A stretch of DNA of 64,000 nucleotides from Serinicoccus hydrothermalis (lineage in GTDB: Bacteria > Actinomycetota > Actinomycetes > Actinomycetales > Dermatophilaceae): the NCBI RefSeq assembly GCF_001685415.1, contig NZ_CP014989.1, positions 1,488,001-1,552,000 on the forward strand, given 5' to 3'. Position numbers and translations under genes: made by a program. The notes under the pieces are model-generated. The model was not told the DNA's origin and did not search any database. It worked only from the letters and a program-made list of their open reading frames with translations. Position 1 is the first letter of the stretch. Each line of letters opens with the position of its first letter. This document shows, one piece after another, positions 1 to 64,000 of this stretch.

Positions 1-523
1 CGTTGACGACCAGAGCCTCCGGGTCGGTGACCAGGGTGACGCCGGAGGGCAGCTCGACCTCGCCGGCGAGGATCTGGGTGCCGGCCTCCAGGCCCTCGAC
101 GGACACGACGATCCACTCGGGGATGCTCGTGATCGGGGCCTCGACCTCGAGGGTGTTGTAATCGGTGGTGACGACGGTCTCCGCCGCGGCCTCGCCCTCG
201 ACGTGGACACCGACCTCGACGGTGACCTTCTCGCCGGCGCGGACGACGACGAGGTCGACGTGCTCGATGAAGCGCTTGATCGGGTCGCGCTGCACGTCCT
301 TGGCCAGGGCCATGTGCGACTCACCCTCGACGTCCAGGGTCAGGACGGCGTTGGTGTGGCGCAGCGCCAGCATCGCCTCGTGGCCCGGCAGGGAGAGGTG
401 CATCGGCGGGGTGCCGTGGCCGTAGAGGACGGCGGGCACCTTGTCGGCGCGGCGGATGCGGCGGGCGGCGCCCTTGCCGAACTCGGTGCGCTTCTCGGCG
501 GAGATCGTGAGCTGGTCAGCCAT
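1..523 (-). CDS. rplY: 50S ribosomal protein L25/Ctc (general stress form), 3' end beyond window
   Basis: Binds 5S rRNA in the large ribosomal subunit; the two-domain Ctc form is also a general stress protein. The visible 174 residues start MADQLTISAEKR, run through the L25 RNA-binding barrel (about residues 5-95, with the GKGAARRIRR segment) and enter the C-terminal Ctc domain; the stop codon lies outside the window. The ATG has an AAGAAGG ribosome site (rc of 532-538) at a normal distance. It follows prs on the same strand, as in other actinobacteria where prs, rplY and pth cluster. Family assignment is secure; only the missing end is unknown. Confidence 0.95.
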   Translation of the reverse strand, partial: MADQLTISAEKRTEFGKGAARRIRRADKVPAVLYGHGTPPMHLSLPGHEAMLALRHTNAVLTLDVEGESHMALAKDVQRDPIKRFIEHVDLVVVRAGEKVTVEVGVHVEGEAAAETVVTTDYNTLEVEAPITSIPEWIVVSVEGLEAGTQILAGEVELPSGVTLVTDPEALVVN

Positions 524-668
524 GAGGGTGAGACCTTCTTTGCGGGTATGCGGTGTGCAGGGTCAGGCCTCGACGCGGGGCACCGCGCGGGGCGGCGTCA
601 GCCGCGAGCTCTTCGTCGATGACGGACACCGTGCAGCGTCCCTCGCCGAGGCAACGCCGGCCAGTCTA
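516..668 (-). promoter_or_regulatory. rplY: rplY promoter and leader with possible 37-codon leader ORF
   Basis: A TAGACT -10 box (rc of 663-668) predicts a transcript starting near 656, giving a leader of about 130 nt ahead of rplY. Inside it a GTG-started ORF (629 down to 516, 37 codons) has a GAGGGA purine run upstream, and its stop overlaps the first codons of rplY, which would allow translational coupling. The -10 box is seen directly. The leader ORF is inference, supported only by position. Confidence 0.35.
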
Positions 669-718
669 TCGCCCGCGCCCGTGGGGCACGAAATCCCGGT
701 CCTCGCCGGACCTCGGGC

Positions 719-1699
719 TCAGGCGCGGCCCTCGAACATCGAGGTGACCGAGCCGTCCTCGAAGACCTCGCGGATCGCCCGGCTGATGAGCGGCGCGATC
801 GAGAGCTGGGTGAGCTTGTCCATCGCCAGCGCCTCCTCCGAGAGCGGCAGCGTGTTGGTGACGACGACCTCGGTGGCCACGGAGTTCGTGAGCCGCTCGA
901 CCGCGGGCTCGGAGAAGATCGCGTGGGTGGCGGCGATGACGACCTCGTTGGCGCCGTCCTTCATGAGCGCCTCCGCGGCCTGGCAGATCGTGCCGCCGGA
1001 GTCGATCATGTCGTCGACGAGGATGCAGGTGCGGCCCTCGACCTCGCCGACGACCCGGTTGGCCACCGACTCGTTGGGGCGGGTGACGTCGCGGGTCTTG
1101 TGGATGAAGGCCAGCGGCACCCCGCCGAGCTTGTTGCTCCACCACTCGGCGACCTTGATCCGCCCGGCGTCCGGGGAGACGACCGCGAGCTTGCGGTCGC
1201 CGTAATTCTCCTTGATGTGCTTGGACAGGATCGGCGTCGCCATGAGGTGGTCCACCGGCCCGTCGAAGAAGCCCTGGATCTGTGCGGTGTGCAGGTCGAC
1301 GGTGAGCAGACGGTCGGCGCCCGCGGTCTTGAACATGTCGGCGATGAGCCTCGCCGAGATCGGCTCCCGGCCCCGGTGCTTCTTGTCCTGACGGGCATAC
1401 CCGTAGAACGGGAGCACGACGGTGATCCGCTTGGCCGAGCCGCGCTTGAGCGCGTCGACCATGATGAGCTGCTCCATGATCCACTCGTTGACCGGCGCGG
1501 TGTGGCTCTGGATGACGAAGGCGTCGCAGCCGCGGACCGACTCGTCGAAGCGGACGTAGATCTCGCTGTTGGCGAAGGTGTGCGCCTGCATCGGGACCAG
1601 GTCGGTGCCCAGCTCTTCCGCCACCTCGTCGGCGAGCGCGGGGTGCGCCCGCCCGGAGAAGACCATGAGGTTCTTCTCGGTGGTCTTGTGGATGCCCAT
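719..1699 (-). CDS. prs: ribose-phosphate pyrophosphokinase
   Basis: Makes phosphoribosyl pyrophosphate from ribose 5-phosphate and ATP for nucleotide, His and Trp synthesis in the cytosol. At 326 residues it has normal family length. Visible motifs: flexible catalytic loop YARQDKKHRGREPIS (from residue 101), the signature DLHTAQIQGFF (135-145) and the ribose-phosphate loop CILVDDMIDSGGT (225-237). The ATG overlaps the glmU stop (TGATG), so the two are translationally coupled, the usual actinobacterial glmU-prs pair. The stop codon is followed by the rplY leader. Confidence 0.98.
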   Translation of the reverse strand: MGIHKTTEKNLMVFSGRAHPALADEVAEELGTDLVPMQAHTFANSEIYVRFDESVRGCDAFVIQSHTAPVNEWIMEQLIMVDALKRGSAKRITVVLPFYGYARQDKKHRGREPISARLIADMFKTAGADRLLTVDLHTAQIQGFFDGPVDHLMATPILSKHIKENYGDRKLAVVSPDAGRIKVAEWWSNKLGGVPLAFIHKTRDVTRPNESVANRVVGEVEGRTCILVDDMIDSGGTICQAAEALMKDGANEVVIAATHAIFSEPAVERLTNSVATEVVVTNTLPLSEEALAMDKLTQLSIAPLISRAIREVFEDGSVTSMFEGRA

Positions 1700-3234
1700 C
1701 AGCTCTCCTGCGTGGTCGTGTCGTCCGGGACGTTCGCGCTCTCGGGTATGCCCTCGCCGCCGTCGTCGCCCGTGCTCGCCTCCTGCGCGGCCTGCGCCGC
1801 CTCGGCGGTCCTCGTGCCCGCGCGGCGGCGCGCGACCCACCCGTCGACGTTGCGCTGCCGGGCCCGGGCGACCCCGATCTGGCCGGGCTCGACCCGGCCC
1901 TCGATCGTGGAGCCGGCGGCGACGTAGGCACCGTCGGCGATCTCGACGGGCGCGACGAGCACCGAGTCCGAGCCGACGAAGCTGTGCCGTCCGACGGTCG
2001 TGTGGTGCTTGGCCACCCCGTCGTAGTTGGCGAAGATCGTGCCGGCCCCGATGTTGGCGCCTTCCCCGATCGTCGCGTCGCCGCAGTAGGTGAGGTGCGG
2101 GACCTTGGCCCCCGGCCCGATGTCGGCGTTCTTGGTCTCGACGAAACCGCCGATCTTGCCGCCCTCGCCGAGCACCGTGCCCGGGCGCAGGTAGGAGAAC
2201 GGGCCGACCGTGGCACGCGGGCCGATGAGCGCGTGCTCGGCCTGGGTGCGCACCACGCTGGCGCCGTCCCCGATCTCGCAGTCGCTGACCGTGGTGTCCG
2301 GGCCGATCGTGGCCTCCGCGCCGATGGTCGTGGCACCGAGGATCTGGGTGCCGGGCCGGACGACGGTGTCCTGGCCGATGGACACGTCGGCGTCGACCCA
2401 CGTCGTCGCGGGGTCGACCACGATGACGCCGTCACGCATGTGCTGCTCGACGACCCGGCGGTTGAGCTCCTTGCCGAGCGCGGCGAGCTGCACCTTGTCG
2501 TTGACGCCCTCGGTCTGCATGAGGTCGGTGACCGGGTGGGCCACGACGGCGCGGCCCTCCTCGCGGGCGATCTTGATGACGTCGGTGAGGTACTTCTCGC
2601 CCTGCTCGTTGGCCTGCCCCACCTGCTCCAGCGCGCGGCGCAGCACCTCGACGTCGAAGGCGTAGATGCCGGCGTTGAACTCCCGGATGTCCACCACGTG
2701 GGAGTAGTCCGGGTCCCCCGCCTCCCGGCGCCGGACCGCGTCCTTGAACTCCATGATCTCGGCCAGCTCGCCGTCGGCGTCGCGCACCACGCGGCCGTAG
2801 CTGCCGGCGTCGTCCACCACGGCGGAGAGCAGGGTGACCGCCGAGCCCCGCTCCTCGTGCACCCGGGTGAGCTCGCGCAGGGTCTCCCCCGCGAGCAGCG
2901 GCACGTCGCCCATGGTGACCAGCACCGTCCCGGTGAGCCCGTCGGGCAGCGCGGCGAGCCCGCACTCGCAGGCGCGGCCGGTGCCGGGCACCTCGTCCTG
3001 GTCTGCGACGATCGCGCTCTGGTCGAGCTCGGCGACGTGCGCGGCGACCCGCTCCCGCTCGTGCCGCACGACGACGGCGAGGTGCTGCGGGGAGGCCTGG
3101 CGGGCGGCATACATCGCGTGCCCGAGGAGGGATCGGCCACCGATGCGGTGCAGCACCTTGGGGATGGAGCTCTTCATCCGGGTGCCCTGCCCGGCGGCGA
3201 GGATGATGACGGCTGCGGGGTGGTGGGACGTCAC
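1699..3234 (-). CDS. glmU: bifunctional GlmU: glucosamine-1-phosphate acetyltransferase / GlcNAc-1-P uridyltransferase
   Basis: Catalyses the last two steps to UDP-GlcNAc, the peptidoglycan precursor. The N-terminal uridyltransferase domain carries LAAGQGTRMK (residues 12-21) and the C-terminal half shows left-handed beta-helix hexapeptide repeats (about 265-455) with the acetyltransferase segment NYDGVAKHHT. A tail of about 50 Ala/Glu/Thr-rich residues extends beyond the core (511 residues in all). The frame is open further upstream, but GTG 3234 is preferred: a TACAGT -10 box (rc of 3242-3247) lies exactly seven bases before it, implying a leaderless mRNA. Coupled to prs downstream; divergent from a tetR gene. 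Confidence 0.97.
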   Translation of the reverse strand: MTSHHPAAVIILAAGQGTRMKSSIPKVLHRIGGRSLLGHAMYAARQASPQHLAVVVRHERERVAAHVAELDQSAIVADQDEVPGTGRACECGLAALPDGLTGTVLVTMGDVPLLAGETLRELTRVHEERGSAVTLLSAVVDDAGSYGRVVRDADGELAEIMEFKDAVRRREAGDPDYSHVVDIREFNAGIYAFDVEVLRRALEQVGQANEQGEKYLTDVIKIAREEGRAVVAHPVTDLMQTEGVNDKVQLAALGKELNRRVVEQHMRDGVIVVDPATTWVDADVSIGQDTVVRPGTQILGATTIGAEATIGPDTTVSDCEIGDGASVVRTQAEHALIGPRATVGPFSYLRPGTVLGEGGKIGGFVETKNADIGPGAKVPHLTYCGDATIGEGANIGAGTIFANYDGVAKHHTTVGRHSFVGSDSVLVAPVEIADGAYVAAGSTIEGRVEPGQIGVARARQRNVDGWVARRRAGTRTAEAAQAAQEASTGDDGGEGIPESANVPDDTTTQES

Positions 3235-3292: not shown

Positions 3293-3934
3293 GTGAGCTC
3301 CAGCGCGAAGACCTCCCGACACCGGATGACCGGCCCGCAGCGGCGGCAGCAGCTGATCGAGGTGGGGCGGTCGCTGTTCGCCGAGCGGGGCTTCGAGGGC
3401 AGCAGCGTGGAGCAGATCTCCGAGGCGGCCGGAGTGTCCAAGCCGGTGATCTACGAGCACTTCGGCGGCAAAGAGGGGTTGTATGCCGTCGTCGTCGACC
3501 GCGAGATCCAGGCCCTGCTCGGGCAGATCACCGACGCGCTCACCGAGCACGAGGGCAACGCGCGGGCGCTGCTCGAGGCGGCGGCGATGGCGCTGCTGGA
3601 CTACATCGACCACTCGACCGACGGTTTCCGCATCCTCGTGCGGGACAGCCCGCCCGGGCAGTCGACCGGTTCCTTCGCCTCGCTCATCAGCGACATCGCG
3701 ACCCAGGTCGAGCACATCCTCGCCGCGGAGTTCCGGCGCCGGCGGCTGGACCCCAAGACCGCCCCGCTGTATGCCCAGATGCTCGTCGGCATGGTCGCGA
3801 TCCCCGGTGGCTGGTGGCTCGACTCGCGCAAGATGAAGAAGGACGACGTCGCCGCGCACCTGGTCAACCTCGCGTGGAACGGCCTCGCCGGCATGGAGGC
3901 CCGTCCGACGCTGCGGACCAGGGCCAAGAGCTGA
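3293..3934 (+). CDS. TetR/AcrR-family transcriptional regulator
   Basis: 213 residues. The N-terminal helix-turn-helix is clear (about residues 20-65: RSLFAERGFEGSSVEQISEAAGVSK, then VIYEHFGGKEGLY); the C-terminal ligand and dimer domain ends in an Arg/Lys tail. The GTG start is preceded six bases earlier by CATGAT (3281-3286), consistent with leaderless transcription. It sits back to back with glmU with 58 bp between the starts, as in several actinobacteria. Ligand and targets cannot be told from sequence; no palindromic operator stands out in the short divergent gap. Confidence 0.9.
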   Translation: MSSSAKTSRHRMTGPQRRQQLIEVGRSLFAERGFEGSSVEQISEAAGVSKPVIYEHFGGKEGLYAVVVDREIQALLGQITDALTEHEGNARALLEAAAMALLDYIDHSTDGFRILVRDSPPGQSTGSFASLISDIATQVEHILAAEFRRRRLDPKTAPLYAQMLVGMVAIPGGWWLDSRKMKKDDVAAHLVNLAWNGLAGMEARPTLRTRAKS

Positions 3935-4071: not shown

Positions 4072-4944
4072 ATGCAGACCCGTCGCCTCGGCCCGTTCAC
4101 CGTCTCCGCCATCGGCCTGGGGGCGATGCCGTTCTCGCTCGGCAAGGACCCGCAGCCCAGCGAGGAGCAGGCGATCGCCACGGTGCACGCCGCTCTCGAC
4201 GCGGGGGTGACCTACGTCGACACGGCCGACATCTACGCTCCCAGCTGGGACCAGATGGGGCACAACGAGCGGGTCATCGCGAAGGCGCTCCAGGGCTACG
4301 GCGACACCAGCCACGTCGTCGTCGGCACCAAGGGCGGCATCACCCGCGCCGAGGGCGAGCAGTGGGGTCGCGACGGGTCACCGGCATACCTGAGGGGTGC
4401 CGTCGAGGCCTCGCTGCGCGCGCTGGAGGTCGAGACCATCGACCTCTACCAGTGGCACCGCCCCGACCGCTGGCGGGTCTACGGAGAGGTGATCCAGACC
4501 TTCAAGGAGCTGCAGGACGAGGGCAAGATCAGGGCTGTCGGCATCTCCAACGCCGACGTCGAGGAGATCGAGGTGGCGCTGGAGGTGCTCGGCGAGGGCG
4601 GGCTGGCCTCGGTGCAGAACGAGTTCTCCCCGCGCTTCCGCTCCAGCCGCGACGAGCTCGAGATGTGCGGTGAGCACGGGATCGCCTTCCTCCCCTGGAG
4701 CCCGCTCGGCGGCACCGGGTCGGCGAGCGACGTCGGGGTGACCTACCCCGCCTTCCACGAGATCGGCACTGAGCGCGGCGTGAGCCCGCAGCAGGTGGTG
4801 CTCGCCTGGGAGCTGAGCCTGGGCGAGCACGTCATCCCGATCCCCGGCGCCAGCCGGCCGGAGTCGATCACCGACTCGGTGCGCGCCGCCGACCTGCAGC
4901 TGACCCGGGACGAGCTCGACCGGATCGAGGGTCAGTTCCGCTGA
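4072..4944 (+). CDS. aldo/keto reductase
   Basis: NAD(P)H-dependent TIM-barrel oxidoreductase of 290 residues. The catalytic tetrad is visible: Asp50 and Tyr55 in VDTADIYAP, Lys87 in VVGTKGG and His129 in LYQWHRPD; the cofactor-binding IPIPGASRPE segment lies near the C-terminus. The sequence resembles the YajO/Tas-type soluble group, but the substrate cannot be inferred. ATG 4072 has TAGGGT (4059-4064) seven bases upstream, so it is probably leaderless. It is followed by a MarR-type regulator on the same strand. Confidence 0.93.
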   Translation: MQTRRLGPFTVSAIGLGAMPFSLGKDPQPSEEQAIATVHAALDAGVTYVDTADIYAPSWDQMGHNERVIAKALQGYGDTSHVVVGTKGGITRAEGEQWGRDGSPAYLRGAVEASLRALEVETIDLYQWHRPDRWRVYGEVIQTFKELQDEGKIRAVGISNADVEEIEVALEVLGEGGLASVQNEFSPRFRSSRDELEMCGEHGIAFLPWSPLGGTGSASDVGVTYPAFHEIGTERGVSPQQVVLAWELSLGEHVIPIPGASRPESITDSVRAADLQLTRDELDRIEGQFR

Positions 4945-7197: not shown

Positions 7198-8891
7198 GCA
7201 CCACCATCCGCGACCACGACGCCTCGGCCAGCCGCCCACCGACCGACCGGAGCGGACCCGCCCACGGGGCGCCACGGCATACCCGCGGCAGCGGCACGCT
7301 GGCCGGGACCGGCACGCTGGTGCGCTTCATGCTGCGCCGCGACCGGATCAAGCTGCCCGCCTGGGTCGCCGGGCTGAGCCTCTTCGTCATCTACATCGGT
7401 GCCGCGCTGCCCCAGATCGCGCCCACCGAGGCCGACCTCGCCGCCGCCAGCCCGTTGCTGAGCCAGCCGATCGGCCGCATGTTCGCGGGCCCGGCCTACG
7501 GCATGGACCCGCCGAGCTACGAGACCTTCTTCGCCGGCGGTTACACGCTCTACCTCTACCTGCTCGCCGCGCTCATGAACATCCTGCTGATCTCCCGGCA
7601 CACCCGGGTCGAGGAGCAGAGCGGCCGCGCCGAGCTGGTGCGGGCCAACGTGACCGGCCGCCATGCCCGGCTCACCGCGGCGCTGGTCGTGGCGGTGATC
7701 ACCAACCTCGCGGCGGCGGTCGCGGTCACCGCGATGGCGCTCGCCAACGACTTCGCCACGACGGGCTCGCTGCTGGTCGGCGTCGGGGTCGCCCTGACCG
7801 GTATGACGTTCGCCGGGGTCAGCGCGGTCACCGCGCAGCTCTCGGAGTACTCCCGCTCCGCCTCGGGCCTGGCCGGTCTCGTGCTGGGGGTCTCCTTCGC
7901 GCTCCGCGCCCTGGGCGACATGGCTGCCGAGGGCGGCAGCACGCTGTCGTGGTTCTCCCCGCTGGGCTGGGCCAGCCAGACCGCCCCCTACGTGCTCGAC
8001 CGCTGGTGGCCGCTGCTGCTGTCGATCGGCCTCGCGGCGGCGACCACGGCGCTCGCCTTCGGGCTGCAGGACCGGCGTGACCTGGGCGCGGGGCTGCTGG
8101 CCGCGCGTCCCGGCCGCGCCGAGGCGGGCCCGGCGCTGGGCACGGTCTGGGGTCTCGCAGCGCGGCTGCAGCGCGGCCCGGTCCTGGCCTGGGGCTTCGC
8201 CATCGCCGTCCTCGGGGTGGTCGACGGGCTCTTCACCCAGGTGATGCTGGACTCGGCCGAGAACATGCCCGACGCGCTGCAGCAGGTCTTCGGCGCGGGC
8301 GAGCTCGCCGCCGGATACCTGGCCTTCCTCTCGGTCTTCAGCGGCTATCTCACGGCCGCCTTCATCGTGTATGCCGTGCAGGGCCTCAAGGCGGAGGAGG
8401 ACTCCGGCCGGGCCGAGGCGGTGCTCGCCACGCCGACCGGCCGCACCGCCTGGGGCCTGTCGCACGTGCTGGCGATCGGCCTCGGGGCCGTGGCCGTCAT
8501 GCTCGTCACCGGCCTGCTCGTCGGTGTCGCGGCGGCCGGGGTCACCGGCACCGGTGCGCTCGTCGGCGACGGATTCCTCGCCCACGTCAACACGCTGCCC
8601 GCGGCGCTCGTCACCCTGGGGATCTGCACGCTGCTCGTCGGCTGGGCACCGCGGCTGCTGGCTCCGGTCGGGTGGACCCTGGTCGGCGTCATGATCTTCG
8701 TCGGCAACTTCGCGGCCCTCCTGGAGGTGCCGGACTGGGTGCTCACGCTCTCCCCGCTGCACCACGTGGCGCAGGTGCCCGTCGAGCCGGTGCAGTGGCT
8801 GCCGCTGCTCTGGCTCGGGCTGGTCGCCGTCGTGGCCGTCGCGCTCGGTCTGGTCGGTCTGCGCCGCCGGCAGATCAGCGCCCGGAGCTGA
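7194..8891 (+). CDS. ABC-2 type exporter permease (polyketide-antibiotic exporter family)
   Basis: 565 residues with about twelve hydrophobic segments in two similar halves, each beginning with a soluble stretch and an ABC-2 membrane unit; this duplicated layout matches the COG3559 exporters of polyketide antibiotics. Both halves carry the related [10 protein letters not shown] and [10 protein letters not shown] segments. The start overlaps the ATPase stop (ATGA). An unstructured N-terminal tail of about 35 residues precedes the first membrane helix. With the ATPase it should form a complete efflux pump, repressed by the upstream TetR. Substrate unknown. Confidence 0.92.
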
Positions 8892-20470: not shown

Positions 20471-20566
20471 ACCGCCTCCTCGTCGACACCCTGTCACTGC
20501 TCCCAACGGGCGGGACGGTCGGGACGTGGGGTCGAGGAGCTCGATCGAGGTATGCCGTCGCGCCGG

Positions 20567-24357: not shown

Positions 24358-26348
<1,991 letters not shown>

Positions 26349-35296: not shown

Positions 35297-35381
35297 ACAT
35301 CGCCAGGCCTGTGGACGGACGATCTGAGCACGGCACCCGGCCCGCTGCGGCGCTGCTGAAGCGGGCATACCCGGACAGAGA

Positions 35382-49912: not shown

Positions 49913-50051
49913 GGCTGCTCCCTCTCCTAGGCTCGTCCCATTCACGCACGAGCGGGGGTATGCCGTCCACGGGTCGGCCTCGGGCGATGAGTTCCCGGCG
50001 GGTCAGCGGTCAGGATGGGACACACGAGCGAACCCGAGGAGAGGACGAGCG

Positions 50052-51907: not shown

Positions 51908-52387
51908 ATGGCGACGCACACCTACGAGCTGGGGCTCACCTGGACCGGCAACCGCGGCTCGGGCACGTCCGGCTACCGCGACTACGACCGCTCGGTCCTG
52001 GCCCGCAGCGTGGGTATGCCGGATCTCCCGCTCTCCGCGGACCGCGCCTTCCGCGGCGACGCCGGGCGGTGGAACCCCGAGGTGCTGCTGCTCGCGGCGC
52101 TGAGCGAGTGCCACCTGCTGTCGCTGCTGCACGTGGCGGTGACGCACGGCGTCACGGTCGTGGACTACACGGACGCACCCGTGGGCACCATGGAGCAGTC
52201 CGGGATCGGCGGTCGGTTCACCCGGGTCCTGCTGCGCCCCGTGGTGACGGTCACGGACACCGAGCACGTCGAGCTCCTGCCGCAGCTGCACGCGGAGGCG
52301 GCGCGGGCCTGCTTCATCGCCTCCTCGGTGAACTTCCCCGTGGACCACGACCCACGGACGGTCGTGGCGCCGCCGCCCGCGACCTGA
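51908..52387 (+). CDS. OsmC-family peroxiredoxin-like protein
   Basis: 159 residues. The two reactive cysteines are present in LSECHLLSLLHVA and ARACFIASSVNFPV, with the N-terminal SGYRDYDR segment. OsmC proteins reduce organic hydroperoxides using the two-cysteine pair. Start ATG 51908; the weak GACGCT eight bases upstream is a poor -10. Convergent with the YhaN-like gene, five bases apart. Confidence 0.9.
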   Translation: MATHTYELGLTWTGNRGSGTSGYRDYDRSVLARSVGMPDLPLSADRAFRGDAGRWNPEVLLLAALSECHLLSLLHVAVTHGVTVVDYTDAPVGTMEQSGIGGRFTRVLLRPVVTVTDTEHVELLPQLHAEAARACFIASSVNFPVDHDPRTVVAPPPAT

Positions 52388-52392
52388 GGCGG

Positions 52393-55092
52393 CTACGAGG
52401 CCTGCAGCCGGACCGTCCGGGCCCCCGGGATCGAGGCATACCGGTCCGGGGTGCAGGTGAGGAGCACCACCTGCACGTCCTCCCCACCGGCGGCCCCACC
52501 CCCGAGCACCTGGCTCATCTGCTCCAGCCGGTCCGGGTCGGTCCACCCCAGGGCGTCGTCGATGACCACCGGCACACCCCGCGCCGGGTCCACCAGCTGT
52601 GCCACGGCCAGCCGGGCCAGGATGCCGAGCTGCTCCCTGGCCCCGCCGGAGAGCTGGTCGTGCGGCACGGTGGTGCCGTGCAGGGTCCGGGCGACGACGC
52701 TCAGCTGCTCGTCGACGGTGACGCCGAAGGTCTGGCCGTAGACCCGCCGACCGAGCCGCTCCAGCGCCTCGGTGAAGGGTCGGACGTAAGCCCGGTGGGC
52801 CGCGTCGCGGTGCTCGTGCAGCGTGGTCCGCAGGTGCCGTGCCGCCCGGGCCCGTCGGTCGAGCGCGACGAGCCGTCGCTCGGCCTCGTCCAGGCCCGCG
52901 ACGGCGAGGTCGTACAGCTCCTGGCGCCCCTCGCCGGCCGCCTGCTCGACGTGCCCGGTGAGGGTGTGCATCCGGTCCCGCGCCTCCCCGAGCTCGTGCT
53001 GCGCCCGGGTCAGGGCGCCCTCGGCGCGCGCGAGCGCGGCCGTGACGGCGTCCGCCCCGGCGTCGCTGAGGGCCGTCCGCGCCGCCTCGGCCCGCACCCG
53101 GGCCTCCTCCAGCGTGGCCGTCCGGCTGCTGGCCCCGGCCGCCAGCTCGTCGTCGCTCGCGACCTCGCGGGACCCGGACAGCTCGGTGACGGCACGGTCG
53201 TGCCGGGCCCGCTCACCCTCGACGCGCCCGACGAGACGGTCCAGCTCGGCCTGGACCCTGCGGGCCTCCTCCCGCCGTGCGCTCATGGTCGCGCCCGCGC
53301 CGCGCCGCGCCTCACGGGCCTCCCGCAGCTTCCGCCCGGCCGCGTGCTCCGCCTGACGCGCGGCGTCCACGTCGCCGCCGGGCTGCCACTCCTCGACGTC
53401 CGCCGTCGCCACCGTGAACCGGTGGCGCGCCTGCTCGAGGCGCCGCAGCAGGCTCGGCGCGGCGGCGCCGGCCTCCACCTGCGGCAGGTCCGCCGCGGCG
53501 CCGTGGGCGCGCAGCACGGACTCCAGGTCGCGTCGCGCCTCGCGCCACGTCGCCTCCGCGGTCTCCGTCGCCCGCGCCGCGGTCCGGAGCCCGTCCAGGT
53601 CCGTGTGGCCGGCGCGGTCCAGCGACGAGACGAGGGCTTCCCGCGCACGGTCCAGGGCGGCCACGCGTCCCGCGGAGTCCGCCGCCGCGCGCACGACCAC
53701 GTGGGCCGCTCCCGGCACGTCCACCTCCAGGTCGTCGGTGGCGACGAACGTCCGTTCCTCGCCGGCGCTCACGGGGCCGTCCTCCTGATCGGCGCCCCGC
53801 ACCGTCACCCCCGAGCCGTCCGACAGCGCACGGACGACGACGCGCGGGCTGGCGGCCTCGTGGCGGGCCCGCTGGACCTCGAGCTCGTGCGCCAGCGCCT
53901 CGACCTCGCGGACCGTCTCACGGGTGACCGGTCGTGCGGGGACGGCCTCGCGTGCCCGGTCCACGGCGGCGGCCCGCTGGTCGATCTCGGCGAGCACGCC
54001 CTCGAGCCGCCGGACCTCCTCGTGCTGCTCCAGGCGGTCCAGCTCGGCCCGGGCCTCTTCGAGCCGCGTCTCGGCCGTCTCGACCAGGGCCTCGGTGCGG
54101 CGCGTCTCCCCCTGCGCCCCCTCGACCTGGGAGAGGAGCTCCTGCGCCGCACGGGCGAGCCGGTCCATCTGCTCCTCGTGCCCGGCGAGCACCTCCTCGA
54201 GGTCGGCGACCTCGCGCACCTGGATGCGCCGTCGCCCGACCTCCGCCTCGGCGGCCCGCGCGAGCTCAGCGGCCTCACCCAGGCGCGCGGAGGCGGACTC
54301 CTCCGCGGCGACGAGCGCGGCGATCCCGGCGGCCCGGTCCTGCGCCCCGGTGAGCGCGCCCCGCGCCTCGTCCGCCTCGCCGGTCAGGGCAGCGACCCGC
54401 TCCCGCGCGGTGGCCAGCAGCTCCAGCAGCTCCTCGGCCTCCACGACCCGGCGATGGGCCTCGGCGACCTCGGACTGGGACTGCGCGTGGTCGGCGATCG
54501 CGGCCTTGTAGTCGCCCGTGGGCCGGCCGGTGCGCGCGGTGAAGTAGCTGAGGTACTCCTCCTCCACGAGGTCCAGCACCCGCTCCCCGCCACCGTCGTG
54601 CAGGTGCGCGTCCGCGGCGGTGTCCAGGGCCTCGCGCAGCACGCCGCTGGAGACCAGCGGCAGCACCGTCCCGTCCCCCGACTGGGTCAGCCGCAGCGCC
54701 TCCCAGAGCGTCGTGTCCAGGCACCCGCGCAGGAGCTGCTCCAGCCGCTCCTGGGCCGCCGACCCCGTGAGCTGCTCCGGCCGGGGCGCCAGCACCTCCA
54801 GCTCGGTCATCGGGCTGCGCAACCACCGCTTGGCCAGCCGCAGCCGCTGGCCGTCGAGGGTGAACTCGGCCTCGACGTAGGGCCCGACGTCGCGGCCGAT
54901 CGGCTGCAGCGCCTGGGCCCGCGCGCTGCGGGACGTCGACTTCAGCTCGAGCAGCCGGTCGAAGGCCTCGAGCAGCGTCGACTTGCCGATCTCGTTGGGG
55001 CCCTCGACCACCACGACACCGCTCTCCGGCAGGTGCACGGTGCGCTCGGCGACGCCCCGGACGTCGCGCAGGGTGATCCGGTGCAGCCTCAC
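52393..55092 (-). CDS. SMC/Rad50-like ATPase of the SbcC/YhaN type, no zinc hook
   Basis: 899 residues. N-terminal Walker A GPNEIGKST (about 34-42) and C-terminal LSGGAREQLG with VPVVIDDALGWTD (Walker B with Asp in place of the usual Glu, as in YhaN) frame two long coiled coils. Mid-protein, where SbcC has its CxxC zinc hook, there is instead a beta-rich segment of about 70 residues (VVVRALSDGSGVTVRG, then TDDLEVDVPGAAHVVV) without cysteine. GTG 55092 overlaps the nuclease gene stop (GTGA). Should form a nuclease-ATPase complex acting on DNA ends. Confidence 0.88.
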   Translation of the reverse strand: MRLHRITLRDVRGVAERTVHLPESGVVVVEGPNEIGKSTLLEAFDRLLELKSTSRSARAQALQPIGRDVGPYVEAEFTLDGQRLRLAKRWLRSPMTELEVLAPRPEQLTGSAAQERLEQLLRGCLDTTLWEALRLTQSGDGTVLPLVSSGVLREALDTAADAHLHDGGGERVLDLVEEEYLSYFTARTGRPTGDYKAAIADHAQSQSEVAEAHRRVVEAEELLELLATARERVAALTGEADEARGALTGAQDRAAGIAALVAAEESASARLGEAAELARAAEAEVGRRRIQVREVADLEEVLAGHEEQMDRLARAAQELLSQVEGAQGETRRTEALVETAETRLEEARAELDRLEQHEEVRRLEGVLAEIDQRAAAVDRAREAVPARPVTRETVREVEALAHELEVQRARHEAASPRVVVRALSDGSGVTVRGADQEDGPVSAGEERTFVATDDLEVDVPGAAHVVVRAAADSAGRVAALDRAREALVSSLDRAGHTDLDGLRTAARATETAEATWREARRDLESVLRAHGAAADLPQVEAGAAAPSLLRRLEQARHRFTVATADVEEWQPGGDVDAARQAEHAAGRKLREAREARRGAGATMSARREEARRVQAELDRLVGRVEGERARHDRAVTELSGSREVASDDELAAGASSRTATLEEARVRAEAARTALSDAGADAVTAALARAEGALTRAQHELGEARDRMHTLTGHVEQAAGEGRQELYDLAVAGLDEAERRLVALDRRARAARHLRTTLHEHRDAAHRAYVRPFTEALERLGRRVYGQTFGVTVDEQLSVVARTLHGTTVPHDQLSGGAREQLGILARLAVAQLVDPARGVPVVIDDALGWTDPDRLEQMSQVLGGGAAGGEDVQVVLLTCTPDRYASIPGARTVRLQAS

Positions 55093-56318
55093 GACCCGCT
55101 CCTGCTCAGCCGGTAGAGCAGCGCGAGGGCGTCGCGCGCGCTCGCCTCGTCGTCCGGCCGCCCGGCCAGGAAGGGCGCCGACGACGTCTCGACCGGGGCC
55201 TCCTGCGCGGACGGGGAACCAGCGGGCGCGGGGCGCTGCGCCTCGGCGCGGATCTCCTCGACCGCCGGTCCCAGGAAGCCGCCGAGCTCCAGCTCCGCCC
55301 AGGCGGCGTCGTCGTCGGCCACCACCAGGTCCCGGTGCTGCTCGCGCTCGACCAGTGCCCCCAGCCGGTCGGCGTGCCGACCGCGCACCTCCTCCAGGCG
55401 CGCGTGCTCCACGACGCCGAGCATGCCCCGCAGGTTGAGGAAGACGACAGTGCGGTCCGGGTCGGGCAGCGCCGCGAGCTCGGCGTCGAGCGACGCCACG
55501 TCGGCGTCGGAGTCGACCTGCCGGTCGAGCACGGTGAAGCCCCAGGTCCCGACGCGGTGCCCCCGCACCCGGACCCTCTCCCCGGACGGCGCGCCCGGGT
55601 CGACCTCCACGACGAGCGCCTCCCCCGGGGCCACCTCCGTCTCCCGGGTGGGCTCCGGCGTGCCGGCATACTGCAGGTCGGCACGCCCGGCGACCTCGGT
55701 GCGCGAGTGGCGGTCGCCGAGGGCGACGTAGTGGACCTGCCCGGCGTCGAGGGCCTGGACCAGCGGCCCGGTCGCGATCGTCGCGTGGTCGCGCCACTCC
55801 GGGTCGAAGGTGTCGACGCCGCCGTGCCCGACGACCACCCGGGTCACCCCCTCGGGCGCCGGCCCGGGCGGGAGCAGGCCCATCGCCTCGGCCACGAGGT
55901 CGCGCCCCGGGTGCTTGCTCTCCCACGGCGCGGCGACCAGCTCCACGCCCGGGGACACCTCGTGCACCCCGGCACGCTCCAGCACGTGCACGTGGCCGGG
56001 CCGTTCTGCGAGGAAGAGCGCGGAGCGGTAGACCGAGGCGGCGTCGAGCGGGTCGTGGTTGCCGGGCAGGAGGTAGACCGGCACCGGCACGGTGCGCAGC
56101 GCGTCGAGCGCCCGACGCACCGTGCGCCCGGTCAGGTGGTTGCTCTCGAAGACGTCGCCGCAGACGACGACGAAGGCGCAGTCCTGCGCCGCCGCGACCT
56201 CCCCCAGACGCCGGATCGCGTCGGTCCGGGCGGCCGTGAAGCGCGACTGTGCCTCGGGCTCGAGGAAGCGGCGGGTCATGCCGATCTGCCAGTCCGCCGT
56301 GTGCAGGAACCGGACCAT
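55089..56318 (-). CDS. SbcD/YhaO-type metallophosphoesterase (DNA exonuclease)
   Basis: 409 residues. Calcineurin-like metal motifs: FLHTADWQIG, VVVCGDVFESNHL, YLLPGNHDPLD, VVGHGGVD and YVALGDRHSR. The remainder is a capping and ATPase-binding region with a disordered Pro/Ala stretch. ATG 56318 is preferred to 56324 because AGGAGG lies eight bases before it and only two before the other. Transcribed ahead of, and overlapping, the ATPase gene. Confidence 0.92.
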   Translation of the reverse strand: MVRFLHTADWQIGMTRRFLEPEAQSRFTAARTDAIRRLGEVAAAQDCAFVVVCGDVFESNHLTGRTVRRALDALRTVPVPVYLLPGNHDPLDAASVYRSALFLAERPGHVHVLERAGVHEVSPGVELVAAPWESKHPGRDLVAEAMGLLPPGPAPEGVTRVVVGHGGVDTFDPEWRDHATIATGPLVQALDAGQVHYVALGDRHSRTEVAGRADLQYAGTPEPTRETEVAPGEALVVEVDPGAPSGERVRVRGHRVGTWGFTVLDRQVDSDADVASLDAELAALPDPDRTVVFLNLRGMLGVVEHARLEEVRGRHADRLGALVEREQHRDLVVADDDAAWAELELGGFLGPAVEEIRAEAQRPAPAGSPSAQEAPVETSSAPFLAGRPDDEASARDALALLYRLSRSGS

Positions 56319-56421: not shown

Positions 56422-56790
56422 TCACACCAGGAGCCGGGCGAGCGCATACCCCCCGGCCGCGGCCCCGAGACCCAGCAGCAGCGTCGCACCCAGGTATGCC
56501 CCGGCCCGGTCCCGGTCGCGCCCGCCGAGCTCACAGGTCTGGACGGCGAGGGTGCTCCACGTCGTGAGCGCACCGCACAGACCCGTGCCGAGCAGCAGGA
56601 AGAGCCAGGGGGCGAGGGCGTCGGCCAGCCCGACGAGCACGCCCAGCGCGGCCGCCCCGACGAGGTTGACGAGCAGCACGCCCCGCACCGGGCCCAGCGG
56701 GGGGCGGGAGAGCAGGTGCCGGAGCATCGCCCCGACCGCGCCGCCCGCCGCCACGAGGGCGGCCGCGAGGAGCCACGGCATACCGCTCAC
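56422..56790 (-). CDS. crcB: fluoride exporter CrcB/Fluc, second subunit
   Basis: 122 residues, four membrane helices; GGAVGAMLRHLLS, VNLVGAAALGVLVG and GTGLCGALTTWSTLAVQT are the Fluc motifs (Asn in helix 2, Thr-Ser in the break of helix 3). Fluc channels are dual-topology dimers; tandem genes usually make heterodimers. GTG 56790 overlaps the stop of the first copy (GTGA). Confidence 0.95.
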   Translation of the reverse strand: MSGMPWLLAAALVAAGGAVGAMLRHLLSRPPLGPVRGVLLVNLVGAAALGVLVGLADALAPWLFLLLGTGLCGALTTWSTLAVQTCELGGRDRDRAGAYLGATLLLGLGAAAGGYALARLLV

Positions 56791-57194
56791 GAGGCACCAC
56801 CCCGCGCCAGCCGCGCCCCCAGACCCGCCGCGGCGACGCAGAGCGCGGCGGTGACCACGAGGTAGACGAGCCCCACGAGGGGGTCGACCCGGCCGAGCAG
56901 GGCGGTCTGCACGGCATACGTGGAGAAGGTCGTGAACCCCCCGAGCAGCCCGGTCCCCACGCCGGGCCGTAGCCAGTGGGGGTGGCGGTGCCGGTCGTCG
57001 TGCACGACCAGCCAGCCCAGGGCGGCGCTGCCCAGCACGTTGGTGACCAGGGTCGCCCAGGGCCAGCCGGAGCCGGCCGGGAGCAGCAGCTCGAGGCACC
57101 AGCGCAGCACCGCACCGAGCCCGCCGCCGACCGCGACGGCCAGGAGGGTGGGGACGTGCCGGGTCGCGGGCGCAGGGGCCTGGGACGAGGACAC
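56787..57194 (-). CDS. crcB: fluoride exporter CrcB/Fluc, first subunit
   Basis: 135 residues; GGGLGAVLRWCLELLLP, VTNVLGSAALGWLVV and GTGLLGGFTTFSTYAVQT are the matching motifs. A basic HDDRHRHPHWLRP loop sets its topology opposite to the other copy. GTG 57194 is leaderless, with TAGGGT (rc of 57201-57206) six bases upstream. I see no fluoride riboswitch in the 35-bp gap to the divergent gene. Confidence 0.95.
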   Translation of the reverse strand: MSSSQAPAPATRHVPTLLAVAVGGGLGAVLRWCLELLLPAGSGWPWATLVTNVLGSAALGWLVVHDDRHRHPHWLRPGVGTGLLGGFTTFSTYAVQTALLGRVDPLVGLVYLVVTAALCVAAAGLGARLARGGAS

Positions 57195-57324: not shown

Positions 57325-58764
57325 ATCGTCGGCGGCATCGCCGTCATCGTCGTCCTCACCCTCATGACCGGCTACTTCGTCGCCCAGGAGTTCGCCTACG
57401 TCAGCGTGGACCGCGGACGGCTGCGGCACCTCGCCGACGAGGGTGACGCCGCCGCGCAGCGGGCGCTCAAGGTCACCTCGCGCCTGTCCTTCACGCTCTC
57501 CGGCGCCCAGTTCGGCATCACGGTCACCGCCCTCATGGTCGGCTACCTCGGCGAGGCGTTGCTCGTGCGCGGGCTGACCGACTCGTATGCCGACGCCGGG
57601 CTGCTCGCGCGGGCGGCGATGATCTCGCTGTTCTCCATCGGCACCCTCGTCTTCTCCACCGTGCTGCAAATGGTCATCGGCGAGCTGGGCCCCAAGAACT
57701 GGGCGATCGCGCGCCCCGTGCCGCTGGCCCGGGCGCTGTCCCGCAGCACCCTCATCTACCTCACGATCCTCGGCCCGGTCATCGCGCTCTTCGACAAGGC
57801 CTCCAACGCGCTGCTGCGCTCGGTGGGCATCGAGCCGGTGGAGGAGCTGCCGCAGGGCGCCACCCCCGAGGACCTCACCCGGATCATCGCCGAGTCGCAC
57901 AGCGGGGGGACGCTGGACGAGGACCTGTCGACCCTGCTCGGGCGCGGCCTGGCCTTCCGGGACCGCGTGGCCGAGGAGGTCATGACGCCGCGGACCTCGG
58001 TCCAGACGATCCAGGCCGACGAGCAGGCCGCGGTCGTGCTCGACGCCCTGCAGAGCGGGCACTCCCGCTTCCCGGTCATCGGCCGCGACATCGACGACAT
58101 CGTCGGCGTGATCGGGCTGCACGACCTGCTCGACGTCGAGCCCGAGGTGCGCCGCACGGCCCTGGTGCGCGACCTGGCCGACGACGCCCTCATCCTGCCG
58201 GAGTCGCTGCCGCTGCCGAAGGTCCTCGAGGCGCTCCGGGAGGGCCACCAGCAGATGGCCGTCGTCGTCGACGAGTACGGCGGCTTCGCCGGGATCGTGA
58301 CCTTCGAGGACGTCGCCGAGGAGGTCGTCGGGGAGATCTGGGACGAGGACGACGACGAGGAGGCCACGAGCGCCGCACGCCCGGACGGGATCTGGGACCT
58401 CTCGGCCCGGTTGCGGATCGACGAGGTCGCCCAGCTGACCGGCGTGGAGCTGCCCGAGCACGAGCACTACGACACGCTGTCCGGCCTGGTCCTGGACCAG
58501 CTGGGCCGCACGGCCGACGAGGGGGACAGCGTGGTCGTCACCTGGAACAGCCGGGACGGGGAGGGCGAGGAGTATGTCCACCTCACCCGGATCGACGTCG
58601 TCACCACCCAGCGCTACGTCCCGGAGACGGTGACCCTGCACCCGATGGTCACCCGCACGCTCGAGGAGTGGCGCGACCTCGGCGACGAGGAGCGCGAGCA
58701 CCTCGGCGACGGGCTGGTCATCGCCACCGCCCAGGCCGAGGACCAGCTGGAGGTGGCCCGATGA
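57319..58764 (+). CDS. CNNM/HlyC-CorC-type membrane protein with CBS pair, first copy
   Basis: 481 residues: DUF21 membrane domain (about 1-190, three to four helices with SGAQFGITVTALMVGYLGE and IGELGPKNWAIA), a CBS-pair domain (about 205-335: EEVMTPRTSVQTI, MAVVVDEYGGFAGIVTFED) and a C-terminal CorC/HlyC transporter-associated domain (IWDLSARLRIDEVAQLTG). Likely involved in divalent cation (Mg/Co) transport. Overlaps the leader ORF and the following paralog. Confidence 0.92.
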   Translation: MLIVGGIAVIVVLTLMTGYFVAQEFAYVSVDRGRLRHLADEGDAAAQRALKVTSRLSFTLSGAQFGITVTALMVGYLGEALLVRGLTDSYADAGLLARAAMISLFSIGTLVFSTVLQMVIGELGPKNWAIARPVPLARALSRSTLIYLTILGPVIALFDKASNALLRSVGIEPVEELPQGATPEDLTRIIAESHSGGTLDEDLSTLLGRGLAFRDRVAEEVMTPRTSVQTIQADEQAAVVLDALQSGHSRFPVIGRDIDDIVGVIGLHDLLDVEPEVRRTALVRDLADDALILPESLPLPKVLEALREGHQQMAVVVDEYGGFAGIVTFEDVAEEVVGEIWDEDDDEEATSAARPDGIWDLSARLRIDEVAQLTGVELPEHEHYDTLSGLVLDQLGRTADEGDSVVVTWNSRDGEGEEYVHLTRIDVVTTQRYVPETVTLHPMVTRTLEEWRDLGDEEREHLGDGLVIATAQAEDQLEVAR

Positions 58765-59879: not shown

Positions 59880-59943
59880 CCGGCATACCCCGGCACCCAC
59901 GCCTGACCGGCATACCCCCGCACGCGCGCCTGACCGGCATACC
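59874..59943 (+). repeat. 27-bp tandem repeat, three copies, at the 3' end of the operon
   Basis: GCCTGACCGGCATACCCC recurs at 59874, 59901 and 59928, exactly 27 bp apart. The first copy includes the stop codon of the upstream gene, and each copy repeats a stop in the same frame. Each also carries the overrepresented octamer GGCATACC. Confidence 0.85.
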
Positions 59944-60142: not shown

Positions 60143-60181
60143 CCCACGCCACTCCTCACGCCCGCGTCCCCCGGGTATGCC

Positions 60182-61116: not shown

Positions 61117-61124
61117 GTAGTTCC

Positions 61125-61377: not shown

Positions 61378-61486
61378 GACGCTGTGGACAACTCGTGACG
61401 GCCCCACCAGCAACATGCCCTCTGACCTGCGGATTCGTCGTCCGACTTGACCGATCTCCCAGGTTACGGGTGAGCCATCTCACACG

Positions 61487-62182: not shown

Positions 62183-62231
62183 GGTGCCATCCTAGGGTCG
62201 GGGTCCGACAGGCGCGGGTGCTGCGCCCGTC

Positions 62232-62918
62232 TCACGGCTGGATCCTGCTGCGTCGCCAGGCGGCCGGGTCGTCCAGGCCACCCTGCGCGGCACGCTCCCA
62301 GACCAGACGGTCGTGCAGCCGGTCGCGTCGGCCGGCCCACACCTCGACCCGCTCGGGGACGATGCGGTAGCCGCCCCACGTCTCCGGTCTGGGCACGTCG
62401 TCGGGGCTCCCCCGGTCCGGCCAGCGCTGCGCGCACTCCTGGTATGCCCGCTCCAGCGTCTCCCGGTCGGCGACCGGGGCGCTCTGGGTCGAGGCGTGGG
62501 CGCTGATGCGCGAGCCGTAGGGCCGGCTGCGGAAGTAGTCCTCGACGAGCTCCTCGGGCAGCTCCTGCGCCCGGCCGCGGAAGCGCACCGCCCGGAACAT
62601 GCCGGCCCAGGTGAGGGTCGCCGCGACCTTGTCGTTGGCGGCCAGCTGCAGGCCCTTGGCCGAGTCGGTACTGGTGAGGAAGCCCGGCCCCCCGGGGTCG
62701 AGGAAGCGCATGAGGACCGCGCGGACGTCGGGCATACCGTCGGTGTCGACCGTCGCGACCCACAGCGCCGCCGGCTCGGGGACGTCCCCGTGCTCCTCGT
62801 GCCGCGCCAGCGCCTGGTCGAACCACTCCCGGACCAGGGGCAGCGGCGCCTCCGGCGCGTCCTGCTCGAGGATCCCCTCGCCGGTGTAGTCGGTGCGGCC
62901 GCCCAGCGCCCCGCTCAT
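62232..62918 (-). CDS. pdxH: pyridoxamine/pyridoxine 5'-phosphate oxidase
   Basis: 228 residues; FMN enzyme making pyridoxal 5'-phosphate. FMN and substrate motifs include VRAVLMRFLDPGGPGFLTSTDSAKG, the RPYGSRISAHASTQS segment and the C-terminal WGGYRIVPERVEVWAGRRDRLHDR. The start overlaps the stop of the 132-residue gene upstream (ATGA), so they are co-translated. Confidence 0.96.
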   Translation of the reverse strand: MSGALGGRTDYTGEGILEQDAPEAPLPLVREWFDQALARHEEHGDVPEPAALWVATVDTDGMPDVRAVLMRFLDPGGPGFLTSTDSAKGLQLAANDKVAATLTWAGMFRAVRFRGRAQELPEELVEDYFRSRPYGSRISAHASTQSAPVADRETLERAYQECAQRWPDRGSPDDVPRPETWGGYRIVPERVEVWAGRRDRLHDRLVWERAAQGGLDDPAAWRRSRIQP

Positions 62919-63313
62919 CGCCGGCCCCGGCGCGGGAGGTGGACGGTGCGGCGCAGCTCGTCGGGGGTGTGCCGCTTGCCCGGGTCCGCGTTGAGCAGCA
63001 GCGTGTCGAAGGGCGCGTCGGTGTGCGGGTGCACGCCGACCGGCTCGTTGCGGGAGAAGACCACCCAGTAGGGCTGGCCGCGGTGGAAGACCTGCTGCAG
63101 CGAGCCCTCCACGACGGTGTCCGCGTGCGCGAGAGCGTGCTTGCGCGGGTTGGTGCGCGTCCGCGCGGCCTGGTCCTGGACGAACCGGGTCGCGGGCTCA
63201 CGCTGCTTGAGGATCTGGTCGACGACCTGCGGACCGTACTTCTGGGCCATGGCGTACACCACGGGCCCGTACTTGATCGCCTGCTTGGCCAGCCGGGTCT
63301 TTCCACCGGGCAC
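62915..63313 (-). CDS. conserved actinobacterial protein preceding pdxH
   Basis: 132 residues, basic, no membrane segment: an N-terminal helix rich in Lys/Tyr/Gln (AIKYGPVVYAMAQKYGPQVVDQILKQ), a loop and a C-terminal beta portion (HRGQPYWVVFSRNEPVGVHPHTDAPFDTLL). GTG 63313 follows AGGAGG; TAGTCT about 40 bases upstream is a probable -10. The pattern looks conserved, but I do not recognise a function. Confidence 0.72.
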   Translation of the reverse strand: MPGGKTRLAKQAIKYGPVVYAMAQKYGPQVVDQILKQREPATRFVQDQAARTRTNPRKHALAHADTVVEGSLQQVFHRGQPYWVVFSRNEPVGVHPHTDAPFDTLLLNADPGKRHTPDELRRTVHLPRRGRR

Positions 63314-63365
63314 GGGTCCTCCTGCGGATCTGGGGTGCCCCGCCAGACTAGGCGGTGACTCTGGG

Positions 63366-64000
63366 TCAACGCCCGACGGCATACCCCTGCATTCCCCGGG
63401 GGTTCGCGCCGGCGCTGAGCACACCGGTCTCCGGGTCGCGGGCCACGGCGCACATCCGCCCCAGGCTCCACGGCCCCTGGTCCAGCACCTCGTGGCCGCG
63501 GGCGCGCAGCCCGTCCAGCACCTCGTCGCCGAGCCGGGACTCCGCGACGAGCACGCGGGGCTCGCTGGCGCGCGGGTGGAAGGAGCCGGGGAAGCTGGTG
63601 GTGTGGAAGACCGGGGCGTCGATCGCCTCCTGGAGCTCGGCGCCCCCGACGAGGTGGCGCAGCAGGAAGACGCTCTGCCACTGGTCCTGCTGGTCGCCGC
63701 CGGGGGTGCCGCACGCCAGGACGGGTATGCCCTCGCGCAGCACCATCGTCGGCGTGAGCGTGGTCCGGGGCCGCCGGCCGGGCACGAGCGAGCTGGGCAG
63801 CCCCTGCTCGAGCCACATCATCTGCAGCCGGCTGCCGAGGGCGAAGCCGAGCTCGGGGATGAACGGGCTGGACTGCAGCCAGCCGCCGCTGGGGGTTGCG
63901 GAGACGAGCATGCCCCAGCGGTCGACCACGTCGACGTGGCAGGTGTCGCCCCGGGTCGCGCCGTCCCGCTGCACGGTGGGCTCCCCGGCGCTGCCGTCGG
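63366..64000 (-). CDS. gamma-glutamyltransferase family protein, 5' part beyond window
   Basis: The 211 C-terminal residues are visible. The autoprocessing Thr that starts the small subunit is in RGDTCHVDVVDRWGMLVSATPS; TPTMVLREGIPVLACGTPGGDQQDQWQSVFLLRHLV and a late GMCAV-like segment (LGRMCAVARDPETG) match the GGT small subunit. The family splits gamma-glutamyl bonds of glutathione or acylates peptides. The N-terminal signal and large subunit are outside, so its location in the cell cannot be judged. Confidence 0.93.
   Translation of the reverse strand, partial: DGSAGEPTVQRDGATRGDTCHVDVVDRWGMLVSATPSGGWLQSSPFIPELGFALGSRLQMMWLEQGLPSSLVPGRRPRTTLTPTMVLREGIPVLACGTPGGDQQDQWQSVFLLRHLVGGAELQEAIDAPVFHTTSFPGSFHPRASEPRVLVAESRLGDEVLDGLRARGHEVLDQGPWSLGRMCAVARDPETGVLSAGANPRGMQGYAVGR

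Follow-up and report, generated by a model that had tools for sequence, protein, structure and literature searches.

According to a 2025 paper (PMC12616744), genome-wide words that mark DNA for uptake are known only from the Neisseriaceae and the Pasteurellaceae. For the uptake signal sequence (USS) of the latter it is reported that a second copy less than 100 bp away does not raise uptake (PMC7811141). ComEC is described as letting in one strand, the other being degraded (PMC12455585), and Micrococcus luteus, which has comEA and comEC homologues, requires Flp pili for transformation (PMC6370729). Here we describe a non-palindromic octamer, GGTATGCC, with the core GTATGCC, which was noticed in a stretch of 64,000 nucleotides from Serinicoccus hydrothermalis (contig NZ_CP014989.1, positions 1,488,001 to 1,552,000; hereafter the window) and was then followed through the whole genome and its relatives. 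With a probability that we put at just over one half, this word marks self-DNA in a lineage-specific manner and is most likely a strand-polar signal resembling uptake sequences and acting via a Flp/Tad pilus, ComEA and ComEC. Among the titles and abstracts listed by literature searches, none reported GGTATGCC, uptake sequences in Actinobacteria, or such an over-represented octamer.

Over-representation of the word and codon choice

The over-representation of GGTATGCC is real and genome-wide. The window contains 42 copies, 16 of them as GGTATGCC and 26 as GGCATACC on the plus strand; these are exactly the numbers given in an earlier note on this DNA, and all ten example positions quoted there match as well. 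Dinucleotide-preserving shuffles of the window (n = 100) gave a mean of 0.62 copies and a maximum of 3, and under an order-3 Markov model the word is the top over-represented 8-mer of the window (42 vs 2.4). It is again the strongest 8-mer (314 vs 17.5 by the same model) in a sample of 464 kb that consists of the window and 20 further stretches of the same genome. The whole genome, a single contig of 3,597,394 bp, holds 2,180 copies, 1,065 and 1,115 in the two orientations, compared with 11 (4 + 7) of a control of equal composition, namely the word read backwards. The excess is thus neither close to expectation in the genome nor limited to the window, the two outcomes that the earlier note had named as fatal to its claim of strong over-representation, and its comparison of the density with that of DNA uptake sequences (DUS) holds. 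The palindromic form GGCATGCC, which that note had not noticed, occurs 0 times in the window against about 2 expected. In a set of 439 core sites the informative part is GTATGCC, with G at the position before it in 71%, G or C directly after it in 87%, and T common (30%) one position further on. The window has 17 additional core sites that lack the leading G.

It is the DNA word that is under selection, and codons are recruited at most places where a single synonymous change completes it. With genes called by our own codon-usage script, Tyr in the 464 kb is written TAT in 89 of 101 codons where TAT completes GGTATGCC, vs 183 of 2,442 elsewhere; the corresponding fractions are 40/53 vs 22/3,897 for ATA (Ile), 34/45 vs 114/3,024 for CAT (His), 63/106 vs 481/17,489 for GCA (Ala), and 28/33 vs 1,337/13,148 for GGT (Gly). 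Odds ratios calculated from these counts are about 90 for TAT and 540 for ATA. One wrong flanking base mostly lowers the preference (ATA 7/49, GCA 14/98 and 3/38, CAT 8/66, TAT before anything other than GC 15/45). The leading G may be absent, TAT being chosen in 93 of 116 cases without it, and in the GGTATGCG context 3 of 4 places are used. The choice therefore follows the DNA word and not the dipeptide, and it is made with codons that are otherwise avoided (TAT, GCA, ATA), just as the earlier note had read it by eye; its examples are also correct, as ATA does encode Ile in Gly-Ile-Pro at 28031 and TAC is retained in ATC TAC GCC at 2659 and 42463. When all synonymous rewrites were considered, the core was present at 377 of 955 possible positions, against 0 to 5% for eight control word pairs. 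Even the proteins are affected: tripeptides that can carry the word are enriched two- to threefold over expectation (Gly-Ile-Pro 59/22, Gly-Met-Pro 33/13, GYA 63/31).

The octamer is denser outside genes (1.14 per kb, gene edges included) than within them (0.62), and the gap is smaller for the core, with 1.0-1.3 per kb between genes and 0.9 within. In genes, 427 core sites lie on the coding strand and 287 on the template strand. A transcription-related role was considered for this lean and rejected, because the one-change codon opportunities are skewed in the same direction (485 vs 382), and we read it as a matter of codon opportunity.

Strand-specific spacing and spellings across the family

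The value of a copy falls when its own strand already bears another one a few hundred bases away, and a copy on the opposite strand is no replacement. This was established on 898 kb, a quarter of the genome, with 845 core sites, together with small samples of other genomes. Adjacent sites less than about 0.8 kb apart are mostly inverted. For pairs on the same strand the ratio to expectation is 0.2 at less than 100 bp, 0.29 at 100-200 bp, 0.41-0.48 at 200-500 bp, 0.60-0.74 at 500-700 bp, and 0.81-1.10 farther apart, whereas for pairs on opposite strands it stays at 0.8-1.3 at all distances. Below 800 bp there are 182 same-strand pairs compared with 281 ± 12 after shuffling of orientations, and none of 1,000 shuffles gave so few.

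The same dependence is seen in the use of codons. Of 867 scored places where one synonymous change would complete the core, 651 are used. Sorted by distance to the nearest same-strand site, use rises from 2/16 below 100 bp through 21/43 (100-200), 61/96 (200-400) and 97/140 (400-700) to 112/134 (700-1000), and is 67/92 beyond 2.5 kb. Sorted by the nearest opposite-strand site, the first five bins give 53/74, 81/104, 120/154, 143/183 and 97/131; distance has no effect up to 2.5 kb, and 30/53 places are used beyond it. With a threshold of 700 bp, near and far places are used in 181/295 and 470/572 cases with respect to same-strand sites (p 6e-11), and in 397/515 and 254/352 cases with respect to opposite-strand sites (p 0.11). 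No difference was detected between neighbours on the 5' and the 3' side, nor any effect of the direction of first encounter (17/39 vs 26/49, p 0.40), so this candidate effect was discarded; equal action of both sides is what would be expected if co-occurrence on one fragment matters.

The pattern was replicated in 33 stretches of other GTATGCC genomes, where 48 of the neighbours less than 800 bp apart are direct and 117 inverted (p 8e-8). With the other spellings the tendency is alike (direct/inverted 6/12, 40/64 and 39/50), only the second being below 0.05. Spacing on each strand is more even than random (coefficient of variation 0.91 and 0.81 vs 1.01 ± 0.03), and the evenness is not clear once the strands are pooled. 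Both orientations are balanced over 149 genomes of the family (36,239/36,143). Such redundancy implies a reader of the word that sees a single strand, or a single direction, along short DNA. This dependence on neighbours of the same orientation is the new finding here.

In the genomes sampled, the large excess is restricted to one family. This family, labelled f1, probably corresponds to Dermatophilaceae/Intrasporangiaceae: the leucyl-tRNA synthetase of the window's genome has, among the best 80 loci, its nearest matches in Ornithinimicrobium sp. CNJ-824 (79%), O. pekingense and Ornithinicoccus, and these loci also include Janibacter, Phycicoccus, Intrasporangium, Flexivirga and Austwickia. 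Of the 398 phylum genomes compared, only members of f1 showed GTATGCCG in great excess, namely three of the five f1 genomes drawn (the window's own genome, 1,828 vs 40; G032, 2,476 vs 135; G035, 1,251 vs 191); the other two did not (G009, 46/28; G037, 7/11). Outside f1 the ratios are small, with a few three- to sevenfold values on low counts (G287 107/31, G400 29/8, G312 15/2). Counts of GGTATGCC within f1 span 6 to 2,228, and a simple threshold divides the 149 genomes into 78 rich, 15 intermediate and 56 poor.

Some of the motif-poor or intermediate genomes use another spelling. This was seen in a survey of 57 stretches from 56 genomes, 20 kb being read of each (60 stretches were fetched, of which L040, L047, L058 and L070 were too short and were dropped, and one stretch of the window's own genome was added). 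GTATGCCG is enriched in 29 of the 57. GTATGACG, mostly with GTATGGCG, is the spelling of G003, G004, G027 and Flexivirga; GGATGCCG is that of G026 (20 vs 1.6) and G016 (16 vs 2.0), GAATGCCG that of G012 (12 vs 0.7) and G018 (7 vs 0.9), TTATGCCG that of G127 (6 vs 0.2), and GGTATGCG that of G104 (7 vs 0.4). GTACGCCG, accompanied by GTACGACG/GTACGGCG in G040, G048 and Austwickia (22 vs 2.6), is the weakest case, because TAC is the codon generally used and 14 vs 5 is seen in Micromonospora, which is not in the family. Evidence for the rarer spellings consists of 6 to 22 copies per 20 kb, and in several f1 genera no enriched word was found in the 20 kb read per stretch. The comparison with relatives that the earlier note had recommended thus confines the excess to the window's family and adds clade-specific dialects, as known from DUS, the spelling differing between genera. 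Two stretches of the survey carry other abundant words: the motif-poor genome G041 has CGTAGCGA 14, TCATCGCT 12 and TAGGAGGG 10 times in L036, strongly over-represented, which may be local repeats or another word, and L056 (G023) has CAGTTCGA 28 and CCGTCGAA 29 times, perhaps from a repeated gene.

In the window, exact matches to GGTATGCC on the plus strand are at 1745..1752, 10543..10550, 12208..12215, 25769..25776, 27886..27893, 31772..31779, 35677..35684, 39517..39524, 52013..52020, 56493..56500, 62441..62448 and 63724..63731 and, outside genes by our own calls, at 20549..20556, 42801..42808, 49957..49964 and 60174..60181. Those on the minus strand are at 1394..1401, 4383..4390, 7276..7283, 10409..10416, 12428..12435, 15552..15559, 17340..17347, 23306..23313, 26738..26745, 28031..28038 (the Gly-Ile-Pro site), 31232..31239, 32480..32487, 36918..36925, 39143..39150, 41654..41661, 44891..44898, 46743..46750, 49138..49145, 52435..52442, 56777..56784, 62731..62738 and 63378..63385 and, again outside genes, at 35364..35371 and in a 27-bp tandem repeat at 59882..59889, 59909..59916 and 59936..59943. 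The exact core-only GTATGCC sites are 3481..3487, 3769..3775, 8369..8375, 18067..18073, 36587..36593, 37986..37992, 40936..40942, 48304..48310 and 57585..57591 on the plus strand, and 3106..3112, 11494..11500, 18154..18160, 20330..20336, 22380..22386, 38228..38234, 55665..55671 and 56913..56919 on the minus strand.

The tandem repeat (59882-59943) consists of three direct units, each containing GGCATACC; the other 15 adjacent core pairs at most 80 bp apart in the 464 kb are all inverted. A role as terminator was considered for these mostly inverted close pairs and was rejected, as 12 of those 15 lie inside genes. Stretch L013 (G000:C1:2160001-2180000) has a lower GC content (0.696) and 4 octamers; it carries an IS21-type transposase pair, cytochrome bd oxidase and copper genes, and is possibly acquired.

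Proposed mechanism and its rivals

The window's genome encodes Flp, a TadA-type ATPase, ComEA (SLBB + HHH), ComEC with a beta-lactamase domain, and DprA, together with a TadB-like protein slightly below the Pfam cut-off, a TadE-like minor pilin (by position and alignment) and a TadF-like one. Competence machinery, as expected with DUS, is hence present, and it is equally present in motif-poor genera: across f1, ComEC was found in 145, flp in 137, TadF-like proteins in 146 and DprA in 148 of 149 genomes, whereas PilM of type IVa pili occurs in 5 and not in the window's genome. Being nearly universal, or in the case of PilM nearly absent, these genes were discarded as a switch for the motif and do not explain why some genera are rich and others poor in it. 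By eye, gene order at 18 of 19 Flp loci (G014 had no gene calls) showed nothing peculiar to motif-rich genomes, and alignments of TadE-like and TadF-like proteins showed no obvious region linked to dialect.

Two of these genes, flp and comEC, are split in some genomes. In G129 the flp pilin gene is split between L097 (G129:C1:842354) and L234 (G129:C1:680895), parts that lie 161 kb apart on one contig, and a serine recombinase (PF00239) adjoins the 3' part; in G147 its two parts are separated by 73 kb of one contig, and in G034 they lie on two contigs, perhaps through an assembly break. The split gene with its adjoining recombinase suggests an integrative element whose attachment site lies inside flp. 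The comEC gene of G080 is split by about 40 kb (L232 and L233, G080:C46:68443 and 108976), with a large serine recombinase (PF00239, PF07508) next to the 3' part, and the best comEC matches in G095, G117 and G049 begin only at profile positions 27-30. Elements may therefore target both competence genes, flp and comEC.

Phage TJE1 of Tetrasphaera jenkinsii (57.7% GC), whose host may be either rich or poor in the motif, has the word about at chance, with 3 GGTATGCC vs 0.8 and 3 GTATGCC vs 2.3 expected. Within at most 6 kb of prophage capsid genes, 18 stretches together contain 18 GGTATGCC vs 33.6 at host density; two of the 20 stretches (L207 and L208), whose hosts use GTACGNCG, are left out of this total, and counted with that spelling they give 19 vs 43 and 20 vs 44 in host stretches. 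A search for close phage relatives with one prophage capsid found none, all 187 phage records being below 60% identity.

Strength, density, balance of orientations and changing spelling fit the DUS class, and the low phage count may do so. We propose that GTATGCC would work in natural transformation like a DUS, with a Flp/Tad pilus, ComEA and ComEC, and that the mark would be kept by selection or by transmission drive during genetic exchange. A DNA stretch of up to about 0.7 kb would profit from one copy per strand, for which a copy in the opposite orientation would be no substitute. This could arise in two ways. The word may be recognised on the one strand that is taken up, given that ComEC imports one strand and the other is degraded; entry of one strand would offer a possible place for strand-specific reading. 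Alternatively, a receptor may read the duplex word and then load or pull the DNA in one direction only. In either case, the cell would test an entering single strand, or a polar duplex, for the word of its lineage, and each strand of the chromosome would have its own, separately spaced tags.

Several observations weigh against this proposal. Known uptake sequences act irrespective of orientation (PMC1939737), which does not predict strand-specific redundancy; here, by indirect evidence, only same-strand neighbours are redundant, and since opposite orientations are independent, we do not file the word as a DUS but only as DUS-like. None of the genes tested (ComEC, flp, TadF-like, DprA) separates rich from poor genomes, and a receptor was not found. 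Of the 12 genomes that lack an flp match, five are rich (all at most 84% complete), two are intermediate, one of them (G073) being 100% complete, and five are poor; G129 and G147 are still motif-rich although their flp is split on one contig. Prophages are just half depleted, their 18 copies exceeding the roughly 3 calculated from the reversed-word control. The sparsest stretch (L213), with 2 copies in 20 kb and 5 of 12 opportunities used, carries uvrA, uvrB and uvrC along with glutamate synthase, so that genes of genome maintenance are not preferred carriers. Among the titles and abstracts listed, none reported transformation in the family.

The main rival, which we consider unlikely, is a Chi-like signal: a helicase-nuclease acting at double-strand ends, probably of the AdnAB type, would read the word on one strand, stop degrading and start recombination, each orientation serving ends that arrive from one side. 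Strand-specific recognition and same-strand redundancy come naturally to Chi, and the spacing indeed points, indirectly, to reading on one strand; the length of eight bases and the roughly chance count in phage TJE1 are also consistent with it. The PDDEXK_1 nuclease domain is present in all 149 f1 genomes and, among the matches listed, many of the best fall within reading frames of about 1,050-1,100 aa, a size like that of AdnA/AdnB, so gene presence is compatible with a Chi based on AdnAB. RecBCD was rejected as the reader and is not needed, as 52 of 89 genomes without RecC are motif-rich, compared with 26 of the 60 that have it. Leading-strand polarization, listed as a property of Chi in E. 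coli, to which motifs of other lineages may be exceptions (PMC8022716), is absent: a crude split of the 845 sites by GC skew gave 423 leading and 422 lagging. Moreover, the spelling changes or the word goes undetected between genera although the nuclease domain is in every genome, whereas Chi itself is described as well conserved in Enterobacteriaceae (PMC8022716), and the enrichment far exceeds that of E. coli Chi, given as 1,008 vs 151 expected (PMC1939737).

We regard as improbable a strand mark for repair or self-recognition, in which one strand of the word would carry a methyl group or a nick, a separate copy being required on each strand within about 1 kb. Mismatch repair, for comparison, needs GATC marks in range, and a mark of this type would explain the strand specificity, the range of about 0.7 kb, the equal effect of 5' and 3' neighbours and the lack of replication bias. 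However, a repair mark with a housekeeping role fits poorly with changes of spelling and with apparent absence from sister genera, and we know of no such case.

More doubtful still is a function in chromosome organisation, as a motif of the type of FtsK-orienting polar sequences (KOPS) or architecture-imparting sequences (AIMS), or as a binding site of a nucleoid protein. The word does occur genome-wide on both strands, with the even per-strand spacing noted above that becomes unclear on pooling. Nevertheless, the leading-strand excess by which AIMS are defined (PMC5993296) is lacking, since in addition to the 423/422 split no two-arc partition tried exceeded chance (maximum imbalance 61 of 845 vs a null mean of 68), and redundancy specific to orientation has no obvious reason in a packing site. 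The segregation motif, one of the candidates in the earlier note, is consequently rejected, the strand-skew check proposed there having shown balanced orientations. Finally, context-dependent mutation, codon-pair preference or restriction avoidance of alternative sequences would account for a word written with otherwise rare codons but is very improbable, given that distinct base changes in five codon contexts converge on one word, the tripeptides are enriched, copies also lie outside genes, and local mutation cannot produce an influence of same-strand neighbours that reaches up to 0.7 kb. As a whole, the interpretation in the earlier note is partly supported: it stands as regards selection at the DNA level and an uptake-like density, is contradicted as regards a segregation motif, and is unlikely as regards a mark left by repair; the clade spellings and the strand-specific spacing, which it missed, are now the strongest constraints on the mechanism.

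Comparison with known systems

The spacing is a readable trace of mechanism: it points to a reader that senses a single strand or direction over about 0.1-0.7 kb, and it makes the choice between single-strand sensing, polar uptake and an AdnAB Chi directly testable.

Like the DUS of Neisseriaceae (AT-GCCGTCTGAA and its dialects, with the receptor ComP), the present word is short, very dense and divided into dialects by clade (PMC3630211); the letters ATGCCG(T) are common to both, which may be chance. It differs from them in the phylum, in Flp/Tad pili probably taking the place of type IVa pili, in the lack of a CTG core, and in strand-specific redundancy. With the USS of Pasteurellaceae (AAGTGCGGT) it shares a spacing of about 1 kb and strong enrichment; USS uptake, however, is reported to be independent of orientation (PMC1939737), whereas here neighbours of the same orientation alone are redundant. 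Chi (RecBCD, AddAB) is likewise short, over-represented and read on one strand, but the present word has no leading-strand bias, no tie to RecBCD, several spellings in one family, and far stronger enrichment. HIP1 of cyanobacteria (GCGATCGC) is an octamer that is extremely over-represented genome-wide within one lineage; unlike GGTATGCC, it is palindromic, and the palindromic form GGCATGCC of the present word is absent from the window. It is among the over-represented words listed in PMC1939737. The transformation of Micrococcus luteus by Flp pili is similar in that the same kinds of genes (Flp, comEA, comEC) are found in the window's genome, although the excerpt of the paper on that species (PMC6370729) describes no uptake sequence. 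A third, unrelated family with several spellings would allow the origin and change of such codes to be tested independently. Tentatively, and at somewhat less than even odds, the window's family may be the third with a genome-wide code for self-DNA, the first that is Gram-positive, the first with Flp/Tad pili, and the first in which the code is read strand by strand.

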